A stretch of DNA of 64,000 nt from Botryococcus braunii. Its lineage: Eukaryota; Chlorophyta; Trebouxiophyceae. The stretch's first letter is position 1; every line of letters starts with the position of its first letter. The stretch is from the NCBI GenBank assembly GCA_002005505.1, contig KV908490.1:62001-126000 (forward strand), in the 5' to 3' direction. The position numbers were made by a program, and so were the translations under genes. Shown piece after piece: positions 12,426-57,808 of the stretch. The notes beneath the pieces are model-generated. The model was not told where the DNA came from. It made no database searches and was given only the letters and a program-made list of their open reading frames with translations.

Positions 12426-13833
12426 TCTTCATTCTTTCCTTGTATCGCATCGTTTCTTCCCTTCCTTCCAACACCTTTAGGCTTCATCGCCTGGCTTGCT
12501 ATCGCTACTTGCTTAGATTCATGTTCCTCTCTTGTCTACCACGCTTACTTGCTGAGCACTTATGAAATTGCTGTAACTTCATGCAGGCAGAAGTGATTTT
12601 CTTATTTGTACGTCTCATCCTTTATGCATTCGGTAAATGGCCTTCACATATTTTAAACCACGCTGACCTGCTTCTTGTTGCACGCCCCCCCCCCCCTTCC
12701 CAAACAACACATGTATCCATATCATTGCTCACTGTCAATTGGGGGCCAGCAGGGAAGGCAGCAAGGGGGATGCGTTGATGCCTTTTGCAGCAATGGAGCA
12801 ATGACTGCATGGCCTATATTTATCCAGTAAAGACTAGTTACGACTGCAGCAAAGATGTAGCAGTTATGCAATTGCTTGACATATCGATAGGCCAATACAT
12901 AGTGGACGCGTCTGAGGCTTTGCTATGGCAAGCACTATATACTTGGCCACCTTGGTTTGCTGCGTCTGAAGACTTGTTTCACAAACTTGGCAAGGGCATA
13001 TTTATGCAGTGCTGACAGGTGCAGACATATACAGTTGATGGCAACATAAACACAAGTCGTACATATTGAGTTGTGCAGCAGTTGAAAGACAAATGATGTT
13101 TAGCACTGCCAAGTCAGGCATGTGTTTCAGAACATGTAAGTCTATCCCTTGTAGGATATTGCCATATTGCATGTGCTATAGCCTTTTATAGAATGTTAGA
13201 CTACATGTATTTGAAAACATGTCCAAATGGACATTCGGAAGGTCGCAACTTCGAGGACTTCCACGGGCATTGTCTGCGAATAGCGCAAGGTACTGGCGTG
13301 CCACGAGATTCAGGACATATAGGACCTTGTGTTTGCAGCATGTAAACCAAATGTAACCTTTATGGGGGTCCCGAGTGCTGCCTGAATGTTGGCGAGTATC
13401 GCGAGGTCGACCAGATGCCGGTGCCAAGAACTGCGGATGTATTATGTAACAATAAAGAATCCCCCTTGGCCCCGATAGTATACCAATATACACGCATGAT
13501 ATAACGCAAGAATTCTGAAATACACACCTGCTGTGCATATGCGAGCAATTGTTTCGTACGTGAAAACCGCTGAATAACGTCCAATACAGTCTCAAAGGGC
13601 TGAAAAGCATGGTCATGGGCTGTAGAGGCTTGAGGTATTCCGACAAATTTGGACGTTTTCCGGACATTAGACCACTGTTTGGCCTTTTTGGGGTGTTTTT
13701 GCTGTTAGATTATTTGGGATATTTTTGTAGAAATGAGACTTGTACACATACGTGTACTTGTACCTGCGATATTACAATTGGTTGTGGTCCCATAAATTCC
13801 TATTTCTATAGATATTACTCCCCCTGATATCAT
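12426..13833. other. Unassigned sequence inside the 7.4-kb insertion
   Basis: Only short, unconvincing frames. A 163-codon minus-strand frame (13176-13667) has no recognised motif and no supporting splice signals. A short C run occurs near 12685-12698. Nothing else is supported. Confidence 0.5.
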
Positions 13834-14098
13834 ATTCCTATAGATTTTAGTGACCCTGATATCCCACTGCTATAGATTATAGTGACCCTGATATCCCACT
13901 GCTATAGATTATAGTGACCCTAATATCCCACTGCTATAGATTTTAATGACCCTGATATCCCACTGCTATAGATTTTAGTGACCCTGATATTCCACTGCTA
14001 TAGATTTTAGTGACCCTGATATCCCACTGCTATAGATTTTAGTGACCCTGATATCCCACTGCTATAGATTTTAGTGACCCTGATATCCCACTGCTATG
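13834..14098. repeat. 32-bp minisatellite
   Basis: About eight copies of a 32-bp unit built on CTATAGATTTTAGTGACCCT followed by GATATCCCACTG, with few substitutions. The flanking sequence to about 14200 holds degenerate half units. Confidence 0.92.
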
Positions 14099-15087
14099 AC
14101 ACTTATCCTACACCTATAGTTAAATATCCACCCTGATATCCTTCTGCTACTTTACATAACAAACTGCTACAACTAAAATGCCATTATTCTACTTTTTAAC
14201 TCTCCTAATATAAATCAAACCACTCCTGCTTGGGGACTAATCCATAGCCCTGAATTGGGCAACAAACGAAAGCCAAACGTGACAAAAAGATGGGGAAATG
14301 TCCACAACAATCTACTAAAAGCCAAACCTGACAAGAAGATGGGGAAGTGTCCCCAAAAATTCTTCTCACATTCAGACCCAAATAATCAATGTGAGAAAAA
14401 CATCCACAACTAATATGTATGAAATGAAACTATTGCCTTGAATAACCTCTTTGCAAACGTCGAAGTGAAAGAGGAAGAACTACGGTGGTAGAAATTGCCT
14501 CACCAGGGAGACATACCCCTTCCAACAATCAGTGATCTTGCTAATAATTGCCAACCTATCAGCTGCATTTACACCGTGTTGAAACCGTTACTCTGATGAT
14601 ACATTTAGCAAAAATTGACCAGCTCCCGCGTGCTGGTTGTCCAAAACCAATCTCTCAGCGGTGTGTTGTTGCTGCAATTGGCTGTTTCTCAAAACTGCTT
14701 GGAAGCGGTACCGATTACCGTTTGCCACGCAGTCCCCCAACAACTACATGGATTTTCGCATTGTTGTAGTACTTCGAATCTGGGGATTCCAGCAAAGCCA
14801 ACGTCCTTCTCAGCACACACCAGACCAACAAAATCATCTATGCTGTAACACGGAATCCCATGATAATTAACTCTGTCCTGCATTTCAAGCACTTTGCAGG
14901 ATTGCGTCCGTGAAACAGAATGACAACATCAATACAAACAGCACAACTCAAAAACCATTAGGGTCCTTTCCACTTCATTCCACAGTTGACCATCAAAAGA
15001 CCCTTGCAACGCAGAGGATACACTTGCAACGCAGTTGACCATCAAAAGACCCTTGCAACGCATGCGAGCGCGTGTGTGCGCGCGCGC

Positions 15088-20202: not shown

Positions 20203-20482
20203 CATACGCTTGATGCCACACTGGCTAAACATGGATTTACTGCATTCATGTCAGATGCAGGAATCTATGTGTCAAATGTTCCAGGGGAAGATCCTGTGTA
20301 TTTGGTTCTCTTTGTAGACGACATGCTGATCATGTCGAAGGCTCTCCCACGTGTATTGGCCTTTAAGGAGACCATAGGGAAAGAGTTCTCTGTTCATGAT
20401 CTCGGGGAAGTCAAGGATTTCCTGGGATGTCAGATTGTACGAGATCGAGAGCGGAAGCTGATGTGGATGAGTAGTGGGCTGA
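20203..20482 (+). pseudogene. Copia reverse transcriptase fragment
   Basis: Plus-strand frame from about 20209 reads LDATLAKHGFTAFMSDAGIYV, then LVLFVDDMLIMSKAL and VHDLGEVKDFLGCQI, the core of a copia RT. The catalytic motif is FVDD. It is cut on the left by the start of the B LTR and on the right by the end of the D LTR. It resembles the B/A family RT, but in the opposite orientation to the B pol fragment at 28415-30047. Confidence 0.9.
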
Positions 20483-21602
20483 TGTGATCTGCAAAGATCC
20501 AAAGGTGTTATATTAATCATAAATGATGACTATACTCACAAGTATATCATCCATGTACTTAATCAGTTTGACCAAGACATACATAGTCGACAGCGTCAAA
20601 CTGATGAACAATTCACGTATAGGAAATGCTTCCACAGAAGTTACTCACAACAAGTGAGAGAGAAAGAAAGCAATTCACATGAGTCCATTCAGGAGTCGGC
20701 TTAACAAGCCAAAGAGATCGAATGACTTACAAACTACTGTCGGACGAACACACACACTAACTAGTCTTACCTGCAAAGATCCAAAGGTGTTATATTAATC
20801 ATAAATGATGACTATACTCACAAGTATATCATCGTGTGAACACACTAACACCTTTAGTTCATTGCATATGATGAACCTTATCTATAAGCACCCCTCAGCC
20901 GTCACATAGCTGACTTACCATGTACTTAATCAGTTTGACCAAGACATACATAGTCGACAGCGTCAAACTGATGAACAATTCTGCAACATTCACATACCCA
21001 TATTAGTCTCTGATCATCAAAACGGCACTTATGGCCGTGATCAAAAACATGACCGGCAGAGCCCCGACTTACCACGTATAGCAATTGCTTCCACAGAAGT
21101 TACTCACAAGTAGTGAGAGAGAAAGAAAGCAATTCACATGAGTCCATTCAGGAGTCGGCTTAACAAGCCAAAGAGATCGAATGACTGCCTGGTGGTCCGG
21201 GTTCTCTGGCTATCTGTACTCAGATCAGCGCGTGGGAAACGCGCTGTCCAGCACTGCTACTGGCCTTTTTCACGAACATTAGGACATGCTCAGGGTTTCT
21301 ATCCACAGAATTTGGACCCTTATCCTACAGTAACACATTTATTAACTCTAGATGCATGTCTTCCAGCCACTAAAGGCTGGAAGGTATTTACAGCCATAGA
21401 ATAAATATCTCTCAATGCATTAATACTCATAGATTGATCGTTCATAGCCAATGTCAAGATGTCTTTACCTTGAGTTAACTGCTTGGTTAACTTACAGCTA
21501 ATTATTACATGTGATTGTACCTTCACACACGCACGCACGCACGCACGTGCACGCACGCACGCACGTTAATTAACATGACATAATGAAGTACAAAACCCAA
21601 CA
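20483..21602 (-). repeat. Copia-D 3' LTR with unspliced and spliced leader copies
   Basis: 1120 bp. On the minus strand: leader exon A' 21184-21073 (112 bp), intron 21072-20981, exon B' 20980-20919 (62 bp), intron 20918-20834, exon C' 20833-20771 (63 bp), 45-bp GT...AG spacer 20770-20726. Then an intronless copy: A 20725-20614 (112 bp), B 20613-20552 (62 bp), C 20551-20489 (63 bp). All exon lengths agree. Introns start GTAAGTC; intron 2 ends TTGCAG, while intron 1 ends CACAC here but CACAG in the 5' LTR. A (GCAC)n tract lies near 21528-21565. Confidence 0.92.
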
Positions 21603-21627: not shown

Positions 21628-23511
21628 TTAATTAAAAGCAGGTCCTGACACACCCAATTTAGCCCTTTGCTTCTCAAATGCAGCAGATGCCAGTGGTTTG
21701 GTAAACATATCTGCTACATTTTCAGATGTAGCAACATAGACAGGGTCAATCTGCCCCCAAGCCACTTTCTCACGTGCATAATGATAGCTGATGCTGATAT
21801 GCTTAGTGAACTTTGACACTATGTGATTTTTCAAGTGCTGTATAGCCCCTTGATTGTCACAGAATAGCTTGACAGTCTTCACTGTGACTCCAAGCTCTTC
21901 CAGCATACCACCCATCCACATTACCTCCTTTACTGCCGCAGCAGTCGCAGCAAATTCAGCTTCCACAGTAGATGTAGACACTGAAGATTGCTTCTTGCTG
22001 CACCAAGACACTGCTGACCCGTTTAGAAGAAGAACAAACCCTGTGGTTGATTTTCTTCCATCCAAGTCACCAGCAAAATCTGCATCCACGTATCCCACCA
22101 ACTCATTGTCACCAGAGTTAGTGTACGTTATGCCCATTTCCTTAGTGCAATTTAAGTACCTCAGTACTCTTATAGCACCATTCCAATGCGCTGTCGTAGG
22201 TTGCCCCCTGAACCGACTCAAAACCCCCACAGCCTGAGCTATGTCAGGCCTAGTTGTGGTAGCTAGGTATTGTAGTGATCCCACGAGCTCCAGATTCCTG
22301 TGACCCTCTGGCAATGGTGTGCCTGCTCCTACCTGCTCACCACCAGCTCCCAAGGGTGGCTCTGGATTTTGTGAAGTGACAAACCCATGCGCCATTGGAG
22401 TATCAACATCCCTGCCTTGTGCAGGAAGTCCATACTCCTCCACCAGCCTCTCAATTTTTAATACGTTAGTCATCTTGAGGCTCCCAGTGGTCTCATCTTT
22501 GGTGATTTCACATCCCAGAAATGATTTAATCTCACCAAGATCATGAATAGAGAAACTACAAGTGAGCTTAGATTTGACTTGCTCAATGGTTTCCCCTTCC
22601 TTGCATACAATCAACAAGTCATCAACATAAGTCAGCAAGTAAACATGTGACTCATAGGATTCCTTGTTGACAAACAGTGATGAATCGCTTTTGCAGGCAG
22701 TAAAGCCAAACTTGCTAAGCTCTTCAACAAGGCGCTTATGCCACGCGCGTGGGGCCTGCTTCAGGCCATACAATGATTTCAGAAGCTTACATACTCTACT
22801 CGAATCACCATTAGAGAAACAGGGGGGTTGAGTTACATAAACTTCCTCCTCTAAGGACCCATTAAGAAAGGCAGTTTTAATGTCTACCTGATGGACCTTC
22901 CATCCCTTAGCATTTGCCAGATTCAGAAGCTTACGCCTGGATGAGTGTGTACTGACAGGAGCAAAAGTCTCAAAATAATCCACCCCTGGTCTTTGTTTGC
23001 ATCCTTGTGCCACAACCCTCGCCTTGAACCTGATTACATCCCCAAAACCATCAGTTTTAATTGCATAAACCCACTTCAGTGGGATCACCTTGGCATGGGA
23101 AGGCTTGTGACAGTATTCAAATGTCTCGTGAGACTCAATTGAGTCCATTTCCTCATTCATAGCCTCCTTCCAGTATACCCATTGAGGTGAATTCCTCGCC
23201 TCAAACCAATCGTTAGGGATTATTACATTCCTAGAGGATAGGACCTCTTTCTCCTTTGCACCGTTTTGGTTAGGTGATGTGACCCTTGTTGCTCCTGCTA
23301 TCGCATCGTCTTTGACAAAGTAAGATCCAGGTATATACTTATCAGGTTGAGCAAGTGTCTCTCTAAGATCATACCTACTCATCCCACCTCTTACCCTGTC
23401 CTGCGCCTCATCCCCACTGTCAGACTCATGTGATGAGCGGTCCTGATCCGAGTCACTACCGGGATCATTTTCACCATCTCCTGGCTGTTCCTGCTCATCC
23501 CCAGGGCCCAT
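21628..23511 (-). CDS. Copia-D RT and RNase H
   Basis: 627 codons. RT motifs are VDIKTAFLNGSLEEEVY, LYGLKQAPRAWHK and the catalytic YVDDLLIV. RNase H has GYVDADFAGDLDGRKSTTG, STVEAEFAATAAAVKE and NVADMFTKPL. It ends about 25 bp before the purine tract AAGGGGAAG. The first 40 codons are an acidic linker that overlaps the previous ORF in another frame, so a frameshift lies near 23400-23510. Confidence 0.94.
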   Translation of the reverse strand: MGPGDEQEQPGDGENDPGSDSDQDRSSHESDSGDEAQDRVRGGMSRYDLRETLAQPDKYIPGSYFVKDDAIAGATRVTSPNQNGAKEKEVLSSRNVIIPNDWFEARNSPQWVYWKEAMNEEMDSIESHETFEYCHKPSHAKVIPLKWVYAIKTDGFGDVIRFKARVVAQGCKQRPGVDYFETFAPVSTHSSRRKLLNLANAKGWKVHQVDIKTAFLNGSLEEEVYVTQPPCFSNGDSSRVCKLLKSLYGLKQAPRAWHKRLVEELSKFGFTACKSDSSLFVNKESYESHVYLLTYVDDLLIVCKEGETIEQVKSKLTCSFSIHDLGEIKSFLGCEITKDETTGSLKMTNVLKIERLVEEYGLPAQGRDVDTPMAHGFVTSQNPEPPLGAGGEQVGAGTPLPEGHRNLELVGSLQYLATTTRPDIAQAVGVLSRFRGQPTTAHWNGAIRVLRYLNCTKEMGITYTNSGDNELVGYVDADFAGDLDGRKSTTGFVLLLNGSAVSWCSKKQSSVSTSTVEAEFAATAAAVKEVMWMGGMLEELGVTVKTVKLFCDNQGAIQHLKNHIVSKFTKHISISYHYAREKVAWGQIDPVYVATSENVADMFTKPLASAAFEKQRAKLGVSGPAFN

Positions 23512-24617
23512 TGACTCTTCCCCTGAGACGCCTGGACCATGTGTATCCCCGTTCCCACTCTCTTCCGTTGCCTTAGTACTTCATTGAGTCTCTGCAACAC
23601 TTCTAGGTTAGCTGGTAGGATTTGGTCTTCTCCCCTTCCAGCTTCCCTATTCATGTCCACTGCCTCAGCAATGTCAACTGGGACAAAATCCCAGTCCTCT
23701 TCGTCTGCAGAGCTTGGCACCTGATCACAATTTACATCACGTGGGAAATCAGGGGGCAGTTGGGTATCAGTAGAGAGAGTGTGGATACCCAATTTGTCTT
23801 CAAAAAATTTCACATTTTTTGACACCTTGATCTTATCCCCAACCAGCACTCTATATGCCTTAGATGCTGGTTCGTACCCGACAAACATTCCTGCCTCTGA
23901 TCTAGGAGAAAAGGCTGACATATCCTTGTCAGGCGTTTTGATGTATGCCAGACAGCCAAATACCCTCAAGTAATGAACAGCAGGCTTCCTGCCAAATAAT
24001 AGCTCATAAGGGGTAGCAGTCTTCCCCTTAATTGCCCTGAGGTTTAGTAACCTAACAGCAGTAGGCAGCGCTTCGGTCCACAAGCTTTGTGGAGCCTTAG
24101 CCTTTAGCAGCAACATTCTAACCTTCTCTTTCAAGGAACGGTTAAAGCGTTCCGCCCGGCCATTTTGTTGCGGGGTATAAGGGGCAGACGTCTCGTGTCT
24201 TATCCCCTTCGACTGAAAGAACTCACGCAAATCTGAGTTTACAAACTCAGTCCCTCTATCAGTCCTGACAACTTTTACAGTATGGCCAGTCTGATTTTCT
24301 AAGTACAGGAGAATTGCTCTAACAGCATCACCCACCTGAGACTTCAGGACCAATGCCCTTGCAACACCCGCCTTTGAGAAATCATCCAGCATGGTGAGCA
24401 TGTATCTCTCTCCTTCAGCACCCGGTACAGGCAGTTCACCCACAATATCCATGTGGACAATCTCTAATCGCTCTGTAGCCGTTGCCGGAAAGCGTGGGTA
24501 GCTCTCTCTAGTCTGCTTCCCCCGAACACAAACCTCACAATGTGAGTGACCATGATTGCAAGGTGATAATGACGTCTCAATGCCTTTCACCATATCTTCG
24601 GTTTGCAAGCGTTCCAT
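23391..24617 (-). CDS. Copia-D integrase
   Basis: 408 codons. The zinc-binding end (HGHSHCEVCVRGK), then the core with VHMDIVGELPV (first Asp), RTDRGTEFVN (second Asp) and QQNGRAERFN (Glu). After it come LFGRKPAVHYLRVFGC and VSKNVKFFEDKLG, the usual bridge to RT. It carries no start codon of its own and continues the gag-protease ORF through two breaks (24618-24856). Confidence 0.93.
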   Translation of the reverse strand: MERLQTEDMVKGIETSLSPCNHGHSHCEVCVRGKQTRESYPRFPATATERLEIVHMDIVGELPVPGAEGERYMLTMLDDFSKAGVARALVLKSQVGDAVRAILLYLENQTGHTVKVVRTDRGTEFVNSDLREFFQSKGIRHETSAPYTPQQNGRAERFNRSLKEKVRMLLLKAKAPQSLWTEALPTAVRLLNLRAIKGKTATPYELLFGRKPAVHYLRVFGCLAYIKTPDKDMSAFSPRSEAGMFVGYEPASKAYRVLVGDKIKVSKNVKFFEDKLGIHTLSTDTQLPPDFPRDVNCDQVPSSADEEDWDFVPVDIAEAVDMNREAGRGEDQILPANLEVLQRLNEVLRQRKRVGTGIHMVQASQGKSQWALGMSRNSQEMVKMIPVVTRIRTAHHMSLTVGMRRRTG

Positions 24618-24856
24618 GTTTTTACTGCTAGGGTGTCCTAGTCTTGCATGTCATAAGTCGTACTCTGAACACTTGTGTGCAATGCAAGCAACATGGGGCA
24701 ACTTTACTGACTGACATATCACTGAGCAGAAGTATAGTCCTCTTTCTTTTGTCACTTCTACTTGAAACGATGACTTCTGACAGCAAACATGTGTGACTTC
24801 TCCTAGTGGGTTTGTTGAAAAATTTAAACCATCAACAACTCCAGCAGACACTGACA
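24618..24856 (-). pseudogene. Copia-D protease-integrase joint, broken
   Basis: A 68-codon frame (24651-24857) covers the region between protease and integrase, in a different frame from the gag ORF, and ends in a stop just before the GHPSSKNMERL-like zinc-finger start. At least one frameshift and one stop separate gag-protease from integrase. Confidence 0.75.
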
Positions 24857-26011
24857 TTAAAAATCCAATGCAGTTGGAACAAATTCAACATCTCTCAATA
24901 TGCATGTATTTCCCGGCTGATCTACCAAGCACACGGTCCCACATGCCTTACGCTGCGCCACGTGTTCGCCAGTGGCTAGATTTAAACCCTTTGGAATTGG
25001 ATACCAGTGAACATTATGCATCAGACGTACATCATTACACACATGTGTGGAGGCCCCAGAATCTATCACCCACTGTGAGGACAATTCAATTGAGTCAGAG
25101 GAGTATGCAGTTGCCATTCCTCCTACAGGATTTTGAGGTCGCCCTCTGCCAGCCAGGATTGCAGCCCTTCTGGCGAAATCATCTTTGTACTTCTGACAAT
25201 TCAGCCTGATGTGACCCTCCTCTAAGCGGAACCAGCACCCATGAAAATTGGTAGGCACGTCATCGGGCATGCCCCTGGGTCTATTGCCATCAAACCCAGG
25301 TGCATTCTTTGGTCTAGGGGGACCAGAGGGAACAAGTTTTGCAGAAGCAGAGGGAGCTTTCTCCTGATCAATGCCCAGAAACTTGGCACATGCACTGATA
25401 CGAGATACAACCTCATCCTCATCTTTCCCCACACATGAATCATACAAATGGGACTGCCTGTGGGTAAAGGCCTTGGGAAGACAGCTAACTATACCCATGG
25501 CAAGGCGCTCCTCATCAACAGGGTGTTTGTTAGCCCTCAAACCTCTAGCCAGCTTGTACTTCATGGCCACAAATGCCATGTAAGTCTGGGCATCCTCAAT
25601 TTTACCTGAGTCAAGCAGAAAGGCCCATTTTGACATGAGCTTCTGGTTCTTTCCGCCTGTGAACTTGCCTTTCAGCCAGTCATACGCCTCCTTGGCAGAA
25701 GGCTTGTCCAGAGCTGCATCAACCCACTCATCTGGAATTTTTTCAGTAACTAGGCTCTTAGCCAAAGCATCACCTGGTGTGTCAGGATGTTCCTCGTCCA
25801 AACACACCTTGATTTTCTTGCTACTAGCAACATTCTCTACATCCTTCATCCATCTGAAACCATTTATGCATAACACATCAAGTGATTGGGCCAACTTCTG
25901 TGTGTTATAGACTGGGCTTAGTGGGTCTCCTGTGCTGCCTGATACAACAGCTGCAGTAACACCTGTACCAGTTGCTCCACCAGGAGCAGATGCACCAGCT
26001 GACCTACTCAT
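24857..26011 (-). CDS. Copia-D gag and protease
   Basis: 384 codons from an ATG (MSRSAGASAPGG). The gag part has WLKGKFTGGKNQKLMSKWAFL. The zinc knuckle reads CWFRLEEGHIRLNC: the second Cys of the CCHC motif is Arg, so zinc binding is lost. The protease catalytic motif is WVIDSGASTHVCND, in the usual copia DSG form. The ORF stops in the protease C-terminal region. Confidence 0.92.
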   Translation of the reverse strand: MSRSAGASAPGGATGTGVTAAVVSGSTGDPLSPVYNTQKLAQSLDVLCINGFRWMKDVENVASSKKIKVCLDEEHPDTPGDALAKSLVTEKIPDEWVDAALDKPSAKEAYDWLKGKFTGGKNQKLMSKWAFLLDSGKIEDAQTYMAFVAMKYKLARGLRANKHPVDEERLAMGIVSCLPKAFTHRQSHLYDSCVGKDEDEVVSRISACAKFLGIDQEKAPSASAKLVPSGPPRPKNAPGFDGNRPRGMPDDVPTNFHGCWFRLEEGHIRLNCQKYKDDFARRAAILAGRGRPQNPVGGMATAYSSDSIELSSQWVIDSGASTHVCNDVRLMHNVHWYPIPKGLNLATGEHVAQRKACGTVCLVDQPGNTCILRDVEFVPTALDF

Positions 26012-26492: not shown

Positions 26493-28414
26493 TGTGATCT
26501 GCAAAGATCCAAAGGTGTTATATTAATCATAAATGATGACTATACTCACAAGTATATCATCCATGTACTTACACCCCGTGACATAAGTCTCCAGGTTCTA
26601 GCGGTACCCATCGACTTGAAGGCCTGTAACTTTGTCCGTACGAAATGAAATTATGAAATGTGACCTCTGATAGGTAGTTCCGGTAATATATTACCTGATG
26701 TCACAGTTTGTGTCCGGCCCATGATTGATTTGAGGTACAAATTCGCCGCTGCTGTACAGCCTGTAATCAGCAACGTGGCAACCGAAACTCGGACCCCTGT
26801 GTGTAGGTGAGCCTAACTCCCTGCACAGAGCTTTAAAAATCATAAGACGTGATGCGTTGGATGTGAATATTCATACACATGAGTTGAGGTTGGTTTGGGA
26901 AAAATCGATGATGGTTGGTGGGAGCTAGAGCGTTTTCACAAGATTGAAGAATCCGGCGTGAGTTTTTGCCGGATTCAATCCCTTTTTTTGCACGCTCCAT
27001 TGTGCATAGGTGAGAAATAAACTTTATAAAAAATGACTGGAGGACATTGAATACTGCTTCCCACTGGGCTGGAAGGCTGGGGCCGGAACCTCCTCGCGGA
27101 GTGTGAGGAAAATGCAAAGTTGCGAGCCAGGGCAATACCTTGATAGTGATGTTTTTTAATGAGCCATTTTTTGGGGGTTCATAGTCTTCGAAGTGCTGTA
27201 CCTTTAAAAATATATTATTGACCGTGATTTTTCGTCAGTTGCTTTCTATGCTCACGCACAGCTTGCATGCCATACTTGGGGCATGCACGCTGTGTATTTT
27301 GCTCAAAAACAGCAGCAAATTGTAAAGTACCAAACCCGGAGACTTATGTCACGGGGTGTTAATCAGTTTGTCCAAGACATACATAGTCGACAGCGTCAAA
27401 CTGATGAACAATTCACGTATAGCAATTGCTTCCACAGAAGTTACTCACAACAAGTGAGAGAGAAAGAAAGCAATTCACATGAGTCCATTCAGGAGTCGGC
27501 TTAACAAGCCAAAGAAATCGAATGACTTACAAACTACTGTCGGACGAACACACACACTAACTAGTCTTACCTGCAAAGATCCAAAGGTGTTATATTAATC
27601 ATAAATGATGACTATACTCACAAGTATATCATCCTGTGAACACACTTACACCTTTAGTTCATTGCATATGATGAACCTTATCTATAAGCACCCCTCAGCC
27701 GTCACATAGCTGACTTACCATGTACTTAATCAGTTTGACCAAGACATACATAGTCGACAGCGTCAAACTGATGAACAATTCTGCAACATTCACATACCCA
27801 TATTAGTCTCTGATCATCAAAACGGCACTTATGGCCGTGATCAAAAACATGACCGGCAGAGCCCCGACTTACCACGTATAGCAATTGCTTCCACAGAAGT
27901 TACTCACAACAAGTGAGAGAGAAAGAAAGCAATTCACATGAGTCCATTCAGGAGTCGGCTTAACAAGCCAAAGAGATCGAATGACTGCCTGGTGGTCCGG
28001 GTTCTCTGGCTATCTGTACTCAGATCAGCGCGTGGGAAACGCGCTGTCCAGCACTGCTACTGGCCTTTTTCACGAACATTAGGACATGCTCAGGGTTCCT
28101 ATCCACAGAATTTGGACCCTTATCCTACAGTAACACATTTATTAACTCTAGATGCATGTCTTCCAGCCACTAAAGGCTGGAAGGTATTTACAGCCATAGA
28201 ATAAATATCTCTCAATGCATTAATAGTCATAGATTGATCGTTCATAGCCATTGTCAAGATGTCTTTACCTTGAGTTAACTGCTTGGTTAACTTACAGCTA
28301 ATTATTACATGTGATTGTACCTTCACACACGCACGCACGTGCGCACGCACGCACGCACGCACGCACGTGCACGCACGTTAATTAACATGACATAACGAAG
28401 TACAAAACCCAACA
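26493..28414 (-). repeat. Copia-D 5' LTR, with a DNA element inside
   Basis: 1922 bp including a 787-bp insertion plus its 3-bp duplication, so 1132 bp without it. It has the same unspliced-plus-spliced leader layout as the 3' LTR, here with intron 1 ending in the canonical TTCACAG. A (GCAC)n/(ACGC)n tract lies at 28326-28378. Confidence 0.92.
26572..27358. mobile_element. Non-autonomous DNA transposon, CACCCCG ends, 787 bp
   Basis: Perfect 21-bp terminal inverted repeats starting CACCCCGTGACATAAGTCTC. Flanked by TTA at 26569-26571 and 27359-27361. The uninterrupted site (TGTACTTAATCAG) is present in the 3' LTR of the same element at about 20553-20567 and again at 27722-27734, which proves the insertion. 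No transposase ORF. Internal sequence is unlike the 7072-7861 element. Confidence 0.92.
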
Positions 28415-30047
28415 CACGTCGAGCCCCAAAGCTACTGGTGGGTGCGAAGACTTCGTCCACATCAATACCCTGAATTTGACGACATCCTTGTGCAACAAGA
28501 CGAGCCTTGTACCTTATAACATTACCATGGGCATCGACTTTTACAGAATATATCCAGTGAACTGGGATGACTTTCTTTCCTCTGGGTCTTTCAGTGTACT
28601 CAAAGCACTCATGAGCATCGAGAGAGTTCTTCTCCTCGATCATGGCTTGTTCCCAAAACACCCACTGATCAGACATTCGTGCCTCACGATAGTTACTTGG
28701 TACAGGAATCTTGCTAAATCTCACTCCTGCAGGACTAGCAAGGCAAGCACGTAGAAAAGCAATACTGGCAGGTTCATTGGCATCCCCTCCTGAATCCCTG
28801 GTACGGAACACACATGAAGGCATCTCCCCACTGGGTTCTGCCCCATCTTGCTCATGCAAAATGTCTCTAACAATCCTGGCAGATCCTGCCCATGGATTAT
28901 CTGAGCTCTGCCTTGTGGCAGATGGCAGATTATCAAAGTATGCAACCTTGCCTCTGGATCTCATCTGACCCATACTCTCCGTGCTTCCTGACTCCCGCTC
29001 TCATCTTCTCTCACAGCAGAAGCAGTTATCATCTCTTCATGTTCACATACCATCTCAGAATGGTCCACTGCGTCATGCACATTGCTAACTCGAAGTCGAG
29101 TTTCACGATCAGATTCACATTTTGCATTAGCAAGCCTCCCTACAGCCTCATCACGTACATGCATTGCAAGAGCATTGTCATCGCTACACTGATCAACAGC
29201 ACTTGAATCACCCTCCACTGCAGAGTCCGTGTCAACTCCAGTACCCCTCCCAGTACATTCAACTTCCCCTACTTCCCCTACGTCTCCTGCTTCCCCTGGT
29301 TCCCTGGACGTTGTAATCCCCCCTTCTTCTGTACTGGTGTCATCCTGTACAGTGACGGTGGTAGGAGCTTCATCAGCAGCTTCGATCCCAGCCTGCTCTG
29401 TGATGTCACCAGACTTGGGTTGCTCTTTACGAGCATTTCGTTGCTGCAGACGCTCTGCACGTGTCAAAGCTCCAGGCTGCAGCTGGAAACGTGCCGTACC
29501 ACCAGGCCAGGGGAATGTGCCCGGGGTGCGTGAAGTTGGAGACTTGGCCAGTGGTACTGCCATGAGTCTCAGTCGGGCTATGGTGTGATTCCCTCCACTG
29601 GTGGTTGGTGCAGAGGTCCCATGCTTGGTAGCAGCATGCATGCGCCTGGGCACCTCACTGACTCCAGGTGATTGGCTTGAGGATGCTGGACTAGGCGCAG
29701 TGGCGCCAGGAGACCCCACTGGGGATGGCGCAGAGGGGGCGCAGGGTGCAGTGGGGTCGGAGTGCCTACTGCGCGCAGGGGGTGCACAAGGTGCGCGGGG
29801 TGCAGTGGGGTCTGGGTGCAGTCGGGCAGTTTGAGGGCGAGCTGGGGAGGGTTCATCGTCCTCGCTACTCTTGTCCTTCATGGGAATTGTTGTCTCAGTG
29901 GATGCAGGGGTCTCCAATTCCACAGGAGTCAGGTCCTGGTCCAGGCTGGGTCCCGGTTGGGGTGAGGCTGGGTCCGGATCCAGGCTAGATCCAGGCTGGG
30001 TTGCAGATACAGGACCGGGCCCAGCATCTTGCAGCCCAATGGCAGAC
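28415..30047 (-). pseudogene. Copia-B pol fragment (linker and RT start)
   Basis: On the minus strand the region after the integrase, a long low-complexity linker (Pro/Ala/Ser-rich, HPDPTAPRAPCAPP), reads open to about 28961. A frameshift follows, then the RT N-terminus (DQWVFWEQAMIEEKNSLDAHE ... VIPVHWIYSVKVDAHGNVIRYKARLVAQGCR). It is cut by the D LTR at 28414 and by a plus-strand B LTR at 30048. The linker matches the plus-strand copy at 54900-55924. Confidence 0.9.
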
Positions 30048-31153
30048 TGTTGTAGGTAATGAGCTAGGTCAGGTAATTACTAAGGGAGCATTACTGTTGG
30101 ACTTATTCAGAGGTATTCTTCTGACTCATCCTAGGCAAAACAGTCGTGCATGCCAGGCTGGCCTGGACGGCACGACACTGTTGTGCCTTAGGTGTAAACT
30201 ACTGCATATGTCTCCCAGCTAGTCCTAGGAACTTGGCTGTGAAGCGACATAATTCCTTGACAGACTTCAGTCTTCCTCACGTAACTTCAGGAGGACGTCA
30301 CGCAGCGGTTAGGACAACTTTGCATTGACTCACACGGCATCGTGGCACTCTGTGGCATTTGCTTTTGGGACCTCGAATACGTATTCGAGGTCAGTCAAAC
30401 TATTTCTTAGGCAGCCACATCAGTGTGTTTAGTTAGGTACATAATATGGGACCTTTAGTTTATTGTCTAGGACACATCATACGTATTGGATTACCAATTA
30501 GGGACCTTTTGGAGTGGGAAGTTTTGAGGGACTCTACTTTTATTGAGTCCCTTGGGCGCCAAACACGGTCAGGTATTTAATTGCTGGAGGCGACATTTCG
30601 TTTGGTTGGCCGAATCCTGAGCCACGGACTGGAAGTCCTGTCTGTTTGATGCAAATTGAAGCTTGCTCTTGCATATTTGATTTGTCTTTGAGACAGTTGT
30701 ACTTGTTTTTGGTTGCCGCAACGGAAGGCCCTCCTGTCGAACCTGTATCAGTCGCGCCAAAGGGTACGTTGTCATCATGACAGAGGATAGAATAGCATTA
30801 TGTATTTGATTTACACCGTATTTGCAATGTTGCTCATTGCTCTGTCTAAATCGTAATGCTTGGGGCAATAGGTGTGTCGAGGTCTGACTTACGAAACCTC
30901 TACAGTGCATTGATAAATCCTTTGCGGACTCACAGGTATTAAATGTAGTTGCGATTTAATGAGATAATTCCTATGTGGTTAGATATTTTGTTGACTCTCG
31001 CAAAGCTGTGCTGTTTGGTCGTCAAGGAAACGAGTGTGCCGGACTCAGGTCCGGCACAGAACATATCTGAGACGATGCTGTGAAACCAGCTGATGTGAGA
31101 AGCAATTTATCAGTCTATGAGAATGTGCCAGTAGGGCAAGAAGTAATGATGTC
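30048..31153 (+). repeat. Copia-B 5' LTR, first part (continues at 39019-39288)
   Basis: Starts TGTTGTAGGTAATGAGC and contains the TACGTA-centred palindrome and one intron-containing leader unit. It is split at GATGTC by the copia-C element. The second part finishes the LTR with an intronless leader copy. Confidence 0.9.
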
Positions 31154-32480
31154 TGTTGTGTTGGAGTTGATGTCCGTATTTGCAGAATAAGCACCTGTTC
31201 GCAACCGTAAGTATCTGTCACATACTCAAGCATTCGCATCAGTTATGACGTCGTCCTCGTAACTGACCACCGCTGCCCACACGTGTATACACTACACTTA
31301 TGCAGCTCGCACTGTCTCAAAAGACAGAAAACAACAACCTCCGATATTCTCTCACGCAGCCCACATGCACAAGTATAGCATGATATCAGTGAGAGCAATA
31401 CTCCGACAGGTCTCAGACAGGTCCTTTAGTGTTCACACTCAAAGTACTCCAGGCAACTCAAAGATGAAGTTCCAACTGTCTGTTTACATGGTGTTGTTTA
31501 TTACCTGTTCGCAACCGTAAGTATCTGTCACATACTCAAGCATTCGCATCAGTTATGACGCCGTCCTCGTAACTGACCACCTGTACGAGTCACGTACATT
31601 GCTCTCTATCAGTATCATACTTACACCAGTAACTAAACAACACAATGTCTTCCATCAATGTACAAGTTTTATCAGGAGGTGTTCTTACCGCTGCCCACAC
31701 GTGTATACACTACACTTATGCAGCTCGCACTGTCTCAAAAGACAGAAAACAACAACCTCCTGCACAGTACTGAATGTTATTCAGTCTTCACAACTAAATG
31801 GCACTCATTAACACTTATGTTTTATCATGTACCAAGCACTGCCGATGCTCTAACCGAGTCTTACCGATATTCTCTCACGCAGCCCACATGCACAAGTATA
31901 GCATGATATCAGTGAGAGCAATACTCCGGCAGGTCTCAGACAGGTCCTTTAGTGTTCAAACTCAAAGGACTCCAGGCAACTCAAAGATGAAGTTCCAACT
32001 GTCTGAGGACCACCCTGCCGACCTGCCCCTCCTAGCCTGATCGTGCGTTATGCACAATCGCAGATCACCGCTGACAAGTGTTCTTTATCACCACATCCTA
32101 AGTGTGTGAAGTACACTTGTCACACCCACGAAGTACAGACTTATGCTGTAACTTATACACCTGTCCTACACGTGTACACTTACAATAGGATCTCCATCAT
32201 GGTTCTTTGAACTTCACTGACTGAGATCTGTACTTGCGTGATAGGCTATGAACTCATGTCACCCACGGAGAACTTTCTCTCCAGGTCTCCTAGTATATAA
32301 CGGCAATTTTTGTGTCCTGATGCAGGCGTTTTTCTTTTCACATCATATGTCCCTCTATTCACTTTATGTGACGTGTCCAAAACCAATGGTGTGAACGAGA
32401 GAGAGCTCCCATACTTACGTATACGTATCTCCGCACATGCAGATCCGTACCTTATGTTATCTCTCTCCCAAAACACAACA
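31154..32480 (-). repeat. Copia-C 3' LTR with unspliced and spliced leader copies
   Basis: Minus-strand order: exon 1' 32002-31865 (138 bp), intron 31864-31760, exon 2' 31759-31689 (71 bp), intron 31688-31581, exon 3' 31580-31505 (76 bp), 25-bp spacer 31504-31480 (GTAATA...AACAG). Then an intronless copy: exon 1 31479-31342 (138 bp), exon 2 31341-31271 (71 bp), exon 3 31270-31195 (76 bp), and U5. Introns read GTAAGACTC...TGTGCAG and GTAAGAACA...CGTACAG. The purine tract AAAAGGGGAAG lies just outside (32484-32494). Confidence 0.95.
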
Positions 32481-32594
32481 ATACTTCCCCTTTTGGACAC
32501 TCACTTATAAAGTTCAATGTCTGTTCATTACTAATTGAGTTTTGTTTTGTACAGTCACAAGTCCATTACTCTCCTTCTCTCTCATTCTCGCCCG

Positions 32595-37686: not shown

Positions 37687-39013
37687 TGTTGTGTTGGAGT
37701 TGATGTCCGTATTTGTAGAATAGGCACCTGTTCGCAACCGTAAGTATCTGTCACATACTCAAGCATTCGCATCAGTTATGACGTCGTCCTCGTAACTGAC
37801 CACCGCTGCCCACACGTGTATACACTACACTTATGCAGCTCGCACTGTCTCAAAAGACAGAAAACAACAACCTCCGATATTCTCTCACGCAGCCCACATG
37901 CACAAGTATAGCATGATATCACTGAGAGCAATACTCCGGCAGGTCTCAGACAGGTCCTTTAGTGTTCACACTCAAAGGACTCCAGGCAACTCAAAGATGA
38001 AGTTCCAACTGTCTATTTACATGGTGTTGTTTATTACCTGTTCGCAACCGTAAGTATCTATCACATACTCAAGCATTTGCATCAGTTATGACGTCGTCCT
38101 CGTAACTGACCACCTGTACGAGTCACGTACATTGCTCTCCATCAGTATCATACTTACACCAGTAACTAAACAACACAATGTCTTCCATCAATGTACAAGT
38201 TTTGTCAGGAGGTGTTCTTACCGCTGCCCACACGTGTATACACTACACTTATGCAGCTCGCACTGTCTCAAAAGACAGAAAACAACAACCTCCTGCACAG
38301 TACTGAATGTTATTCAGTCTTCACAACTAAATGGCACTCATTAACACTTATGTTTTATCATGTACCAAGCACTGCCGATGCTCTAACCGAGTCTTACCGA
38401 TATTCTCTCACGCAGCCCACATGCACAAGTACAGCATGATATCAGTGAGAGCAATACTCCGGCAGGTCTCAGACAGGTCCTTTAGTGTTCAAACTCAAAG
38501 GACTCCAGGCAACTCAAAGATGAAGTTCCAACTGTCTGAGGACCACCCTGCCGACCTGCCCCTCCTAGCCTGATCGTGCGTTATGCACAATCGCAGATCA
38601 CCGCTGACAAGTGTTCTTTATCACCACATCCTAAGTGTGTGAAGTACACTTGTCACACCCACGAAGTACAGACTTATGCTGTAACTTATACACCTGTCCT
38701 ACACGTGTACACTCACAATAGGATCTCCATCATGGTTCTTTGAACTTCACTGACTGAGATCTGTACTTGCGTGATAGGCTATGAACTCATGTCACCCACG
38801 GAGAACTTTCTCTCCAGGTCTCCTAGTATATAACGGCAATTTTTGTGTCCTGATGCAGGCGTTTTTCTTTTCACATCATATGTCCCTCTATGCACTTTAT
38901 GTGACGTGTCCAAAACCAATGGCGTGAACGAGAGAGAGCTCCCATACTTACGTATACGTATCTCCGCACATGCAGATCCGTACCTTATGTTATCTCTCTC
39001 CCAAAACACAACA
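37687..39013 (-). repeat. Copia-C 5' LTR
   Basis: 1327 bp, TGTTGTGTTTTGG...CAACACAACA on the minus strand. It repeats the unspliced and spliced leader layout of the 3' LTR. Confidence 0.95.
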
Positions 39014-39018
39014 ATGTC

Positions 39019-39288
39019 CCATGTAAGCATTCGTTTGGTTGGCCGAATCTCGAGCCACGGACTGGAAGTCCTGTCTGTTTGATGCAAATTGAAGCTTGCT
39101 CTTGCATATTTGATTTGTCTTTGAGACAGTCGTACTTGTTTTTGGTTGCCGCAACGGAAGGCGCTCCTGTCGAACCTGTATCAGTGGCGCCAAAGGGGGT
39201 GTCGAGGTCTCACTTACGAAACCTCTACAGTGCATTGACAAATCCTTTGCGGACTTACAGGTGTTCTCTTTACCCATAACCTTTCACA
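39019..39288 (+). repeat. Copia-B 5' LTR, second part
   Basis: Resumes with CCATGTAAG/CATTCG, followed by the intronless leader copy and the U5 end ...CATAACCTTTCACA. Confidence 0.9.
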
Positions 39289-39303: not shown

Positions 39304-39422
39304 TGCCCATCGAGCTACGCCGAAGCCAAGGTTGCAGAGTACGAGGAATCCGCCTTGAATACCTGCTGCACGTCATATCCAGAACGATTCATATCTGCAA
39401 AGTGACCCAGACTTGCAGAAAC
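39304..39422 (+). other. Copia-B leader, interrupted by copia-A
   Basis: Leader between primer-binding site and gag, cut at GAAAC (39418-39422). It continues at 52492 after the copia-A array. Confidence 0.85.
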
Positions 39423-39823
39423 TGAACAATTCTGGGCGTAATGTTCCCTGTATGTCCCGGCACGAAGGGTGTTAAGCTCGGTCGGGTCTCTTGCTGTGTG
39501 TCGGAGAGCAAGCAGAGCCCGACTATGTGTTGGCACTTGTGGCAACTGATCAGAGATAAGCACCCGGAGTGCTCTTTCAGTCCCAAACAAGTGCCGTGCC
39601 CTTCATGCCTGCTGCCTATATCCTTTCTCGCAAGGACGCGTCAAATTGCATTACTCTCTCTCTCCAAAATGGAATCGGTCCAGATCAATTATGGCAGAAC
39701 TCTAGAGTTCTGCCATCCATTACTCTACCTCTAAGATTGTTCACATTGATTGCTATAGGGAAGCCTAGCCACTATTACTCTTCTGAGGGAAAGTCACTAA
39801 TTTGTTCCTTCACTATTATAACA
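39423..39823 (-). repeat. Copia-A LTR 1
   Basis: 401 bp, TGTTATAATAG...AATTGTTCA on the minus strand. I see no difference from LTRs 2 and 3. It contains a CAGAACTCTAGAGTTCTG palindrome (39703-39720). It has only a single leader copy, without the exon duplication of family E. Confidence 0.95.
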
Positions 39824-39833
39824 CTTCCCCTTG
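39824..39833 (-). other. Copia-A polypurine tract
   Basis: CAAGGGGAAG on the minus strand, directly before the LTR start TGTTATAA and 8 bp downstream of the pol stop region. Confidence 0.75.
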
Positions 39834-39841
39834 ACTTTTCC

Positions 39842-42800
39842 TCACAAAAACTTGGCTAGTCCCAGAGCCTCGCGATGGCCCTGAAATACCTGCCTTGTCA
39901 ACGGCTTGGTAAATATATCTGCCACATTCCTAGCAGAAGGAACGTATTTCACATCCACCTGTCCCAATGCAATAGCTTCCCGAGCAAAATGAAAGCTGAT
40001 TGCAATGTGCTTGGTATGTTTTGAGAACACTGGATTTCTGAGATGATTGATGCATCCCTGATTATCACAGTGGATCTTCACAATCCAAGGAGAAATACCA
40101 ATTTCTTCCAGGAATCCCTTCATCCAATTTGCCTCTTTGACAGCTGCACTTGCCGCCATAAACTCAGCCTCTACAGTGGATGTGGCCACTGCAGACTGCT
40201 TCTTGCTTCCCCAAACTACAGCTCCTCCAAACACACGAATTACGTAACCAGTAGTGGAGAACCTGTGATCCTGATCACCACCATAATCTGCATCCACAAA
40301 GCCCTCCAGCTCTGTGTCCTTCCCCCCAAGTACTAACACAAGATCCCTGGTAGCCATCAGATACTTCAACACTCTGATGGCTTCATTCCAGTGAGCAGTG
40401 GTGGGAGTAATCCTGTACCTGGAAAGCACTCCCACAGCCTGGGAAATATCAGGCCTTGTGGTGTTTGCAATGTACAACAGTGACCCAACCAGCTCACAAT
40501 ATCTGTGCCCTGGTGGTAAGGGACTCCCAGCTCCAATGCTGGCACTGTTGTCCTTGGACATCGGTCGCTGTGTGGCCACAAAATCCTTAGTCATAGGGGT
40601 GTCAGGCCCCACAGACTCCAGATCCAGCCCAAATTTCTCAACTAGGGCATCAATCTTTGGTATGCAACTCAAAGAAATCAACCCTTTCTCTCTATCTCTC
40701 ATCACTTGGCAGCCCAAGAAATCTTTCACCTCTCCTAGATCATGAATGGTGAACTCCTGCTTCAACAACCCTTTCACTCTCTCAATCTCACTCATGCCCT
40801 TCGAGACTATCAACAGATCATCAACATAAATCAGCACAAAGGATTTCCCTCCATCCACAGAACATTTCACATAGACCCCAGCATCACTCTTGCACACCTC
40901 ATACCCCATGGTATGTAGCTTCTCATTAAGGGTCTTATGCCATGCCCTTGGAGCTTGCTTCAGGCCATACAGTGCCTTCTTCAAGCGACACACAGTGTTC
41001 CCATCCCCATTCTCAAACCCAGGAGGTTGTGTGACATAGACCTCCTCCTCTAATTCACCATTTAAAAACGCAGTCTTGACATCCACCTGGTGAATTTCAA
41101 GACCCTCCTGTGCAGCCACTGACAGTAAAGCTCTTCTAGACCCATAACTGCTGGTGGGAGCAAATACCTCCATCACATCCACTCCTGGAATTTGCCTACA
41201 CCCTTGAGCCACCAGCCTGGCCTTGAACCTAAGGACATTGCCATGAGCATCCATTTTCACTGAAAAAATCCAGTGAACTGGGATTACTTTGTGCCCACGA
41301 GGTCTAGGAACAAACTCCATCACCTCATGAGCATCTAAGGAGTTTTGCTCCTCCTGCATTGCAGCCTTCCAGTATTCCCACTGTGGGGACTGCTGGGCCT
41401 CCTTTAGACTTGAAGGCACACTAATCTTCCCAAAACGCACCCCAGTGTGCTTCCCCTGATCTTGCTTACTCTTACTCTCACTCTCATCCACTACTCTTTC
41501 GCTGAATGTCGCCGCACTGCATCTGGGGACTGTGGGTAAAGATCCAGATCTCTCCCTCTGCTCTTTCTCTCTCTTAGACTCACAGCTTGCCCTCTCAAGC
41601 TTGCTGCCAGCCACTCTCACATCATCCTCCCAAACACAGGTACCTCTCGGAAAGCTCTTGTAATTGGGGGAGTTCTCACACTGTCTTGGCTTCCGATTCA
41701 CCTCCTCAGACACACTCTCACATGGCTGACGGTTTGCAGTCCCGTCAGGACTCTCACAGACATGTGTACCACTCTGCCTTGCATGAGCTCTTGGTCTATC
41801 TTGCTGCTGTGCCCATGTCTCTCTCTCTCTCTGTCTGCTCCCTACTAGACATGAGCGCTGAGGCGCAGGCCCAGCAGCACACTCCCATGCATGGCCCACA
41901 CTTGCGTGGCTGGCACCACATTGTCCTTGGGCATCACTGATAGAGTTCTCACCGCTAACATTTCTCTCAGGCACTGAGCAGGTCCCACCCATACAGCTCA
42001 ACTCACTTGGACCATCTGCAGTCTGATCAGAGACTGCCCCCCTCTCATCTCTTACAAGTGAAGCAGGTCTCTCGGTGTCCTGCCCCAAATCCTGCACTTC
42101 CCCTGGTCCCTGTGACTCTGTGTCACCTTCAGTCATCCCCTCTCGCTCACCGCTCTCTCCCTTATCCTGTGCCAGCAGGATATCTCGAGCCGCAGTTCGT
42201 TGCTCATAGCGTTGAGCCCGCGACAGTCCGTCCGGAGGCGGGATGGTAGTAGCCGGATGCGTGTTACGCAGTGATTGCTGTACTCGCTCTAATATCTGAT
42301 GGTGTTGTCCTTTGTCCGCACTTCCTCGCGCCAGTCGTTGAATAGCGTCCAGAGCCCCGGACTGATCCAGGTCCGGCTGCTGCTCTCCCGTGCTTGCTTC
42401 GGGAGACACACTGAGAATGCCCTCCTCTTGAGAAGGCTTCCCCTGACTATCAGGCTCAGTTGCAGCCTGGTCAGGGGGTACCGGGAAGGAGCTGTCAGGT
42501 CTACTGCTGGAGCATGGGCTGCTGACAGTCTGATTCTGCATACTGCGCTGTGACAATGGCACCACTGGGTTGCTGCTGTGCAATGGCTCTGCTAAGTCTT
42601 CAGGGTACGAGAACTGCTGAGGCTGGTCAGGGAGAACAGCCATTCCCACCCGAGTAGCTCCTCGAATGTGTTCCACAAATTGAACATCTCTGCTCTCTCT
42701 CCAGATCCCCCCTCCCATATAGATACGATATGCCTTTGATACTGGAGAGTAACCAGTGAACATCCCAGCCACAGCCTTTGGTGCAAAGGCTCCCCTCTGC

Positions 42801-45094: not shown

Positions 45095-45105
45095 GCTGAT
45101 GTTAC

Positions 45106-45630: not shown

Positions 45631-45672
45631 CGTAGGCTCGGAACATACTTTCAGTTGCCCAGCTCAAGAGTT

Positions 45673-45687
45673 GGTGGGCCCATAACC
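45673..45687 (-). other. Copia-A primer-binding site
   Basis: GGTTATGGGCCCACC on the minus strand, adjoining the LTR end TTGTTCA with no spacer. It is repeated at 52071-52085 for the second copy. Confidence 0.85.
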
Positions 45688-46088
45688 TGAACAATTCTGG
45701 GCGTAATGTTCCCTGTATGTCCCGGCACGAAGGGTGTTAAGCTCGGTCGGGTCTCTTGCTGTGTGTCGGAGAGCAAGCAGAGCCCGACTATGTGTTGGCA
45801 CTTGTGGCAACTGATCAGAGATAAGCACCCGGAGTGCTCTTTCAGTCCCAAACAAGTGCCGTGCCCTTCATGCCTGCTGCCTATATCCTTTCTCGCAAGG
45901 ACGCGTCAAATTGCATTACTCTCTCTCTCCAAAATGGAATCGGTCCAGATCAATTATGGCAGAACTCTAGAGTTCTGCCATCCATTACTCTACCTCTAAG
46001 ATTGTTCACATTGATTGCTATAGGGAAGCCTAGCCACTATTACTCTTCTGAGGGAAAGTCACTAATTTGTTCCTTCACTATTATAACA
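45688..46088 (-). repeat. Copia-A LTR 2 (shared)
   Basis: 5' LTR of copy 1 and 3' LTR of copy 2. Same 401-bp sequence as LTR 1. Confidence 0.95.
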
Positions 46089-46106
46089 CTTCCCCTTGAC
46101 TTTTCC

Positions 46107-52028: not shown

Positions 52029-52085
52029 CGTAGGCTCGGAACATACTTTCAGTTGCCCAGCTCAAGAGTTGGTGGGCCCATAACC

Positions 52086-57017: not shown

Positions 57018-57742
57018 TGTTATATTATAAATGAGTGATAGGTGCCTTTCCCTTAGGAGAGTAATAGTGGCCAGATCAGCTCGGATCCACTAGCGGGAAC
57101 ATTCATTAGAATGAGTTATAAGCGGCAGAACCTAGGAGTTCTGCCAGGACCAATCTAGACCAATTTCGCGTAGATTAGGGAGAATGAGGTAATCGGACAC
57201 GGTTTGCTAGAAAGGATATATGTCGCTGGCTCGAAGGGACGAGGCACTTGATTGGGACTACAAAAGCACTTCGGGTGTTTGTCTCTTACCTGTTGCCAGT
57301 CAAGTCACCTCACACAGTCGCCACTGCTTGTTTCTCGACACACAACAAGAGTGCCGCCGGACTAAACACCCTCGTGCCGGGTCATACAGGTAAACTGATG
57401 TCATAGCATTAAAGCTACAAGGACAATGGATTAGGAAAGGGTCTAGATAATGTGTATTAGGAAAGTGCTAATGTTTTAGCTCATCGAACACTGGTAATAC
57501 AGACTATCGGTACTTACGTAGATGGAGTAGTTTGAATTACTGAGTGATGAGAGAGAACAATAAGCATTGTAAGACTTGATTGCGACTACAAAAGCACTTC
57601 GGGTGTTTGTCTCTTAACTGTTGCCAGTCAAGTCACCTCACACAGTCGCCACTGCTTGTTTCTCAACACACAACAAGAGTGCCGCCGGACTAAACACCCT
57701 CGTGCCGGGTCATACAGGAAACGCCAAGCACAGAAGTTTACA
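57018..57742 (+). repeat. Copia-E 5' LTR with duplicated leader exon
   Basis: 725 bp, TGTTATATTATAA...AGTTTACA. The leader segment occurs twice, 57246-57389 and 57574-57717 (144 bp each, about three mismatches), separated by a 184-bp spacer 57390-57573 that starts GTAAAC and ends GTAAG. The related 401-bp copia-A LTR has only one copy followed by a 25-bp U5, so the extra copy plus spacer was gained in E. Confidence 0.93.
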
Positions 57743-57757: not shown

Positions 57758-57808
57758 GACTCTTATGCGGGGCATGTAAAATGTATGACTCGGGCAAAGT
57801 AGTCTGTG

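Follow-up and report, generated by a model that had tools for sequence, protein, structure and literature searches.

In a stretch of 64,000 nucleotides from the genome of Botryococcus braunii (Chlorophyta; positions 62,001 to 126,000 of contig KV908490.1, assembly GCA_002005505.1; hereafter the window), the 3′ long terminal repeat (LTR) of a minus-strand Copia element, here called family D, holds the leader of the element twice. Downstream of the promoter part (P) of the 3′-unique region (U3), copy 1 comprises three exons, A, B and C, separated by two introns; a spacer (s) then leads to copy 2, in which the same segments (A′, B′ and C′) are fused exactly at the exon borders. A preliminary description of this DNA had placed all six segments and their precise joins correctly, and alignment of the two copies finds four differences among 112 bases of A and none in B or C. 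The doubled leader, intron-bearing in one copy and exactly spliced in the other, is confirmed. Very likely, the two copies exist because every round of replication writes spliced leader RNA back into the LTR, the introns persisting in U3.

Across the D copies in the genome, intron 1 begins with GTAAGT in 98 of 102 and ends with TGCAG in 98 of 101, and 85 of 95 scored copies of intron 2 end in AG (CACAG in 84, CCCAG in one), the others ending in CACAT (eight), CACAC (one) or TCACA (one). Both introns had been described as GTAAGT..AG, of 92 and 85 base pairs (bp); the lengths, the donors and the whole of intron 1 stand, while intron 2 of the window LTR proves to be GT..AC. Similarly, the repeat A, put at 112 bp, runs two bases further (AG), to 114, and the spacer, presented as a 45-bp GT..AG link between the copies, has that position and length and appears to be more than a linker, since in four families it closes with TGTAA just where copy 2 begins. 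The end of C′ reads TGCAG/ATCACA in 100 of 105 D copies.

A genome search with the D LTR gave 40 scored matches among 284 candidates, all 40 covering the query from base 1 to base 1120. A broader sample of 125 places was drawn from 100 of 102 matches to intron 1 (at most three mismatches) and 99 of 116 matches to the spliced junction, among those listed; 120 of these loci were fetched, with C752 (twice), C759, C772 and C775 left out. The 120 are not independent: L060 overlaps L061 within a single LTR, L090 overlaps L091, L046 and L121 share flanks, and L059 is the window LTR itself. The exact module order is present in 61, truncated, interrupted or indel-bearing versions of it in 42, and one of four rarer orders, or a fragment of one, in the remaining 17, so that the arrangement is no chance occurrence. 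With i and j standing for introns 1 and 2, the rarer orders are P-A-B-C without introns (S; ten loci, for example L031, L046, and L093 with L094), P-A-i-B-j-C (U; L088 and L089), A-i-B-C (L015 and L029) and a double unit, A-i-B-j-C-s-A-i-B-j-C-s-A-B-C (UUS; L043), to which two fragments are added. L043 is a 5′ LTR with two intron-bearing units ahead of the spliced unit, and L042, the other LTR on its contig, has one.

Three further families in the window (X, Z and W), with unrelated leaders, follow the same plan of promoter, copy 1, TGTAA-ended spacer, exactly spliced copy 2 and LTR end (Table 1). The intron sequences of X and W differ. In W, whose LTR is split by the insertion of X and resumes at 39014, A′B′ comprises 231 bases, of which 222 are identical to spliced A+B without a gap. 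Most genome matches span nearly the whole LTR: 33 of 43 X matches run from base 5 or earlier to base 1291 or later of 1329, and 42 of 45 Z matches cover nearly the whole LTR. An assembly artefact was ruled out, as the plan recurs in several families and at many places.

Table 1. Coordinates, within the window, of the LTRs of families D, X, Z and W, of their modules, and of the D reading frames
Family	Feature	Position	Strand	Remarks
D	3′ LTR	20483..21602	−	1120 bp, TGTTGG..ATCACA; delimited by full-length genome matches and a polypurine tract (PPT)-like AAGGGGAAGATT at 21603
D	P, promoter part of U3	21185..21602	−	predicted start site 21186 (GC/AGTCATTC), from the A repeat beginning at a CA step
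D	A, exon 1 of copy 1	21073..21186	−	intron-containing leader; 21184-21073 is 112 bases, 114 with the shared AG
D	Intron 1	20981..21072	−	92 bp, GTAAGT..TGCAG
D	B, exon 2 of copy 1	20919..20980	−	62 bases
D	Intron 2	20834..20918	−	85 bases, GTAAGT..; AC end here, AG end in the 5′ LTR
D	C, exon 3 of copy 1	20771..20833	−	63 bases; TGCAG end, then donor GTAAGA
D	s, spacer	20726..20770	−	45 bp, GTAAGA..GTAAG; TGTAA at 20731-20727, putative poly(A) signal
D	A′, copy 2	20614..20725	−	first ~13 bases, putative R
D	B′, copy 2	20552..20613	−	joins A′ and C′ exactly at exon borders
D	C′, copy 2	20489..20551	−	TGCAG end, putative intron 3 acceptor; then ATCACA, LTR end
D	5′ LTR, same element	26493..28414	−	28414-26493; plan as in 3′ LTR; insert 26572-27358
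D	gag/pol reading frames	21628..26011	−	RVT_2 in 21628-23511, integrase in 23391-24617, Pol_BBD in 24857-26011
X	3′ LTR	31154..32482	−	same plan as D
X	3′ LTR, copy 1		−	A 32005-31865, intron 31864-31760, B 31759-31689, intron 31688-31581, C 31580-31505
X	3′ LTR, spacer and copy 2		−	s 31504-31483, A′ 31482-31342, B′ 31341-31271, C′ 31270-31195
X	5′ LTR	37687..39015	−	same plan as D
Z	LTR	57019..57742	+	A 57246-57389, s 57390-57573, A′ 57574-57717; one exon, no internal intron
W	LTR, first part	30048..31153	+	A 30597-30763, intron 30764-30871, B 30872-30935, s from 30936
W	LTR, second part	39014..39288	+	end of s with TGTAA, A′B′ 39030-39260, U5

One indication that the second copy is made anew lies in the way the two copies change together. 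As judged from the aligned LTRs, a subfamily mutation in exon A or C of D reaches both copies: the same base is present in each at A23 and A97 (85 of 87 LTRs at either site), A120 (82/87), A121 (84/87), A123 (86/87), C49 (88/90) and C54 (83/90), so that agreement extends to within four bases of the exon end (A123). The mean distance between copies within one D LTR is 1.3 columns for A, 1.09 for B and 1.2 for C, against 2.7, 1.15 and 2.0 between LTRs. The clearest case is family X, sampled, among 43 matches, as 11 whole LTRs (two of them in the window) plus 20 short stretches. It contains two subfamilies, defined by seven LTRs and 210 alignment columns apart; in all seven, both copies are of the same type at the exon sites. 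The Z subfamilies differ by about a fifth, and their substitutions still agree between copies. In the Z LTR L166, the copies have diverged at 34 and 32 of 162 columns, yet differ from each other at 2, and the copies of L163 are 15 columns apart, 13 of which come from one insertion. In D, X and Z alike, the exons of copy 2 thus follow those of copy 1 from subfamily to subfamily, which suggests that the join is made repeatedly, probably in every cycle.

Two mosaic X LTRs bear on how this might come about. L134 is of type 2 in P, copy 1 and s and of type 1 in A′, B′, C′ and the 5′-unique region (U5), the switch falling no more than 12 bases from where copy 2 starts (before A′ position 13). Such a product would be expected had the strong-stop complementary DNA (cDNA) of one RNA been transferred, where copy 2 begins, to the 3′ end of a second RNA. 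L135 has a type 2 block flanked by type 1 sequence; the block starts at the end of P and takes in A, intron 1, B, intron 2 and most of C, and its exon part is repeated in copy 2 without the introns, the exceptions at A13 and C66 also recurring. As copy 2 lacks the introns, copy 1 is the likely source in L135, and the direction of transfer, judged from this LTR and from the intron-free state of copy 2, is likely from copy 1 to copy 2. The only X LTRs whose copies disagree are L134, the chimera, and L136, an old copy. A further LTR, L141, was considered as a second mosaic showing direction and was withdrawn, as its introns are mostly of type 1 while B and C are of type 2.

The junction between spacer and copy 2 provides a second line of evidence. 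Among 31 X LTRs, the base or bases between TGTAAA and AGACAG vary: with the type 1 spacer (n = 21) the join reads G in 10, T in 5, nothing in 3, and C, A and GA in one each, and with the type 2 spacer (n = 10) it reads AGT, ATG and AGA in three each and AGG in one. The entropy of the type 1 join is 1.94 bits, compared with 0.86 in the column that follows and 0.14 on average (21 LTRs). The join is alike in 8 of 11 pairs of X LTRs that share a contig, though not necessarily an element, which suggests that it was mostly set at insertion. In six Z LTRs the joins are G, AG, C, G, C and TG. Such variability in X and Z is what would be expected where strong-stop cDNA ends at the cap; in a mutant of human immunodeficiency virus type 1 (HIV-1), copying of the cap G is reported to have changed the nucleotide immediately before the start site, at a rate of about 5% per cycle (PMC12172438).

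Three sequence signals, each noticed first and tested afterward, recur at the expected borders in D, X, Z and W. Copy 1 starts at a CA step in all four families, each of which also has TGTAA where copy 2 begins. In chlorophytes, Pyramimonas excepted, a UGUAA peak is described about 17 bases before the cleavage site (PMC1868727). At that distance, cleavage would take place about 10–14 bases inside copy 2; this would be in line with the switch of L134 before A′ position 13. In addition, the last exon of copy 1 ends in CAG in each of the four families, as do none of five internal exon ends. If the last intron consists of s plus copy 2, the end of this exon would have two roles, marking the donor border in copy 1 and providing the acceptor in copy 2.

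From these features, a replication cycle can be proposed. The U3 promoter would start RNA at the first base of A in copy 1, and the transcript of the 5′ LTR would lose its internal introns together with a last intron, whose donor closes copy 1 and whose acceptor closes copy 2, leaving a mature leader of A-B-C, U5 and primer site. In D, this third intron would most likely have its donor after C and its acceptor at the end of C′, removing both spacer and copy 2. At the other end of the RNA, the 3′ LTR would be transcribed through copy 1 with its introns retained and cleaved about 17 bases after UGUAA, roughly 10–14 bases into copy 2, so that the repeat region (R) would correspond to the first bases of A/A′. 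Strong-stop cDNA made on the spliced leader would end at the cap, pair with R and be extended into the spacer, the intron-bearing copy 1 and the promoter. Each new LTR would then combine copy 1 from the parent's 3′ LTR with a copy 2 freshly made from copy 1 of the parent's 5′ LTR. The body of copy 2 would not be inherited, being spliced out of the transcript in the 5′ LTR and, in the 3′ LTR, lying past the point of poly(A) addition. We consider it probable that these LTRs form a class of their own, with the spliced leader as obligate strong-stop template, introns that are permanent in U3, and an R-U5 that is rewritten in every cycle and whose body is never inherited.

At the level of sequence, the exact spliced copies, their concert and one chimera that switches at the start of copy 2 are demonstrated, as is the shared ancestry of copies 1 and 2 at each subfamily change. 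A number of observations weigh against the proposed cycle. We infer from sequence where the RNA starts, that the 5′ LTR transcript is spliced, that poly(A) is added in copy 2 and that the cap is copied, and the cycle leaves unexplained why the introns of copy 1 in the 3′ LTR stay unspliced. The D join is almost fixed (TTGTA in 91 of 93), and three of the same-contig X pairs have differing joins. A TATA-like box near −29 is, by eye, clear in Z and Y only, weak in D and W, and unseen in X; D also has three further TGTAA motifs (LTR positions 94, 107 and 211) and an AATAAA (260) upstream of A, and some of its copies lack the AG of intron 2. Exon B of D is uninformative, as it has little subfamily variation, and at alignment column 20 of C a T-to-C change is present in copy 2 only, in five LTRs of different subfamilies (L039, L048, L099, L107 and L120). 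L141 and the old copy L136 fit the concert in part, but combine exon states of type 2 with introns mostly of type 1 or mixed, and do not show direction. Spliced B/C followed by s, which splicing of copy 1 in the 3′ LTR would yield, has no exact match in the genome and is present in none of the 120 D loci, 82 of which have the unspliced form. Finally, the four rare D orders would equal the products of single crossovers between direct repeats, so that on their own they are no proof of splicing; an interpretation of them as products of alternative splicing was dropped, as the crossovers yield the same four forms.

The crossovers in question, of A with A′, B with B′ and C with C′, would give S, UUS, A-i-B-C and U, and they indicate that the repeats do recombine. 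It could therefore be asked whether a tandem duplication arose whose exons have since been kept alike by DNA-level gene conversion or by slippage during reverse transcription, splicing having taken place once or never. Patchwise conversion could also account for the type 2 exon states without introns in L141 and L136. Such a process should shift introns as well, but none of the 120 D loci has retained s while losing the introns of copy 1, and only the double unit of L043 has an intron-bearing unit downstream of s. It would further have to act up to the last few bases of the exon (A123) and to have changed about a fifth of the bases of both Z copies in step, and it leaves the variable join, the TGTAA and the CAG ends unexplained; we regard it as unlikely. 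In the preliminary description, a spliced leader had been reverse-transcribed and joined to an LTR template still bearing introns, which fits the evidence except in being a single past event, given the concert in D, X and Z. Were that join a one-off in an ancestral LTR, with ordinary inheritance of both copies thereafter, the near-uniform s/A′ junction of D would follow directly, but the subfamily substitutions present in both copies in three families, the recurrence of the L135 block in copy 2 and the sharing of the plan by three other families make this most improbable.

A classical LTR whose start site is at A′, with the upstream intron-bearing copy a passive part of U3, would still have R beginning at A′ and TGTAA just upstream of it, and L134 would be an ordinary intermolecular transfer. 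The concert would nevertheless be unexplained, as a classical LTR offers no route from copy 1 to copy 2, and the TATA-like boxes seen lie upstream of copy 1; this is very unlikely. Introner elements are short GT..AG introns at clean sites, and the presence of introns in one copy only would suit insertion of introner-like sequences into copy 1 of an older tandem duplicate. Among the matches listed, the near-identical introns at many unrelated host sites that mark introners were not found: intron 1 of D occurs in 104 of the 120 fetched loci and adjoins modules of the D LTR in all 104, so that within the loci examined its copies are confined to this LTR family. As the introns of X and W have other sequences, an introner origin is barely conceivable.

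Compared with known elements, D and X resemble Ty1/Copia in that integrase lies upstream of RVT_2; D further has a TG..CA LTR pair and the PPT-like AAGGGGAAGATT ahead of its 3′ LTR. Candidate five-base target repeats lie beside two solo LTRs of the family (CGGAC/CGGAC at L046 and TTATG/TTATG at L031), and the flanks of the window element are unlike each other. On the basis of gene order and LTR ends, D and X are assigned to Copia. They differ from Ty1/Copia in that U3 has a whole intron-bearing leader, of which R-U5 is a spliced copy. In the barley element BARE, splicing and the choice of start site likewise separate RNA roles within one LTR element, but, as that report describes it, the intron lies outside the LTR, spliced RNA is kept from replication and R is present only in the unspliced TATA1 RNA (PMC3735527). 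In the B. braunii elements, by contrast, the spliced leader appears to template strong-stop cDNA, and an exclusion of spliced RNA as in BARE was not found: the LTRs of D, X and W contain genomic copies of spliced leaders, provided that the predicted introns are real. Functional introns are also present in the plant LTR elements Ogre and EVADE, where the text concerning them ties the introns to subgenomic RNAs and makes no mention of a spliced copy in the LTR (PMC12786077).

The HIV-1 LTR is not known to have an intron-bearing second leader. A likeness to that virus lies in the nucleotide just upstream of the start site, which is altered at minus-strand transfer (PMC12172438). The preliminary description knew of no comparable LTR architecture, and aimed literature searches, which covered open-licence papers, returned no title or opening lines describing one; to that extent, the plan of the D, X, Z and W LTRs matches none in the literature. 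One match for an intron in the LTR, PMC5542766, was set aside, as it concerns the engineered lentiviral vector LTR1.20.

Reverse transcription of spliced RNA normally erases introns, and an LTR part copied from the 5′ end of the RNA should lose them in one cycle. If the proposed cycle is correct, the second, spliced copy supplies R at the 3′ end of the RNA, so that the introns can be kept. For BARE, the rule is stated that retrotransposons have to keep their spliced RNA from being reverse-transcribed (PMC3735527), which the proposed cycle would contradict. Genomic DNA would moreover reveal where transcripts start, how they are spliced and which errors strand transfer makes, every new insertion being a genomic record of the start and splicing of its parent's leader.

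Elsewhere in the D element, the 5′ LTR is split by an insert of 787 bases, which has inverted ends CACCCCGTGACATAAGTC and a TAA target repeat and which resembles a PIF/Harbinger-type DNA transposon. The flanks of the element (20470-20482 and 28415-28430) form no target repeat and bear reverse transcriptase reading frames on opposite strands, so that the locus looks rearranged. Directly after the LTR, the window copies of D, Y, Z and W have GGTTATGGGCCC, and other D copies have GGTACTGGGCCC. The former may be a half-tRNA primer site complementary to initiator-Met tRNA; a search with a 21-mer of that tRNA gave no match.

Further observations concern the surroundings of these elements. A second element, with the LTR start TGTAACGG, extends from about 1690 on the plus strand and is seemingly inserted in A′ of another W LTR (527-1689); gypsy-like frames, judged by eye, follow it. 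An Rfam scan of the window gave no match. In the assembly, no RuBisCO large subunit was found, whereas exons resembling those of light-harvesting complex (LHC) proteins are present, as would suit a green alga. Two tandem Y elements with LTRs of 408 bases occupy 39416-52486, and related reading frames lie ahead of gag in Y (45106-45630, minus strand) and Z (57806-58336, plus strand), neither matching Pfam. A 32-base tandem repeat array is located at 13734-14149.
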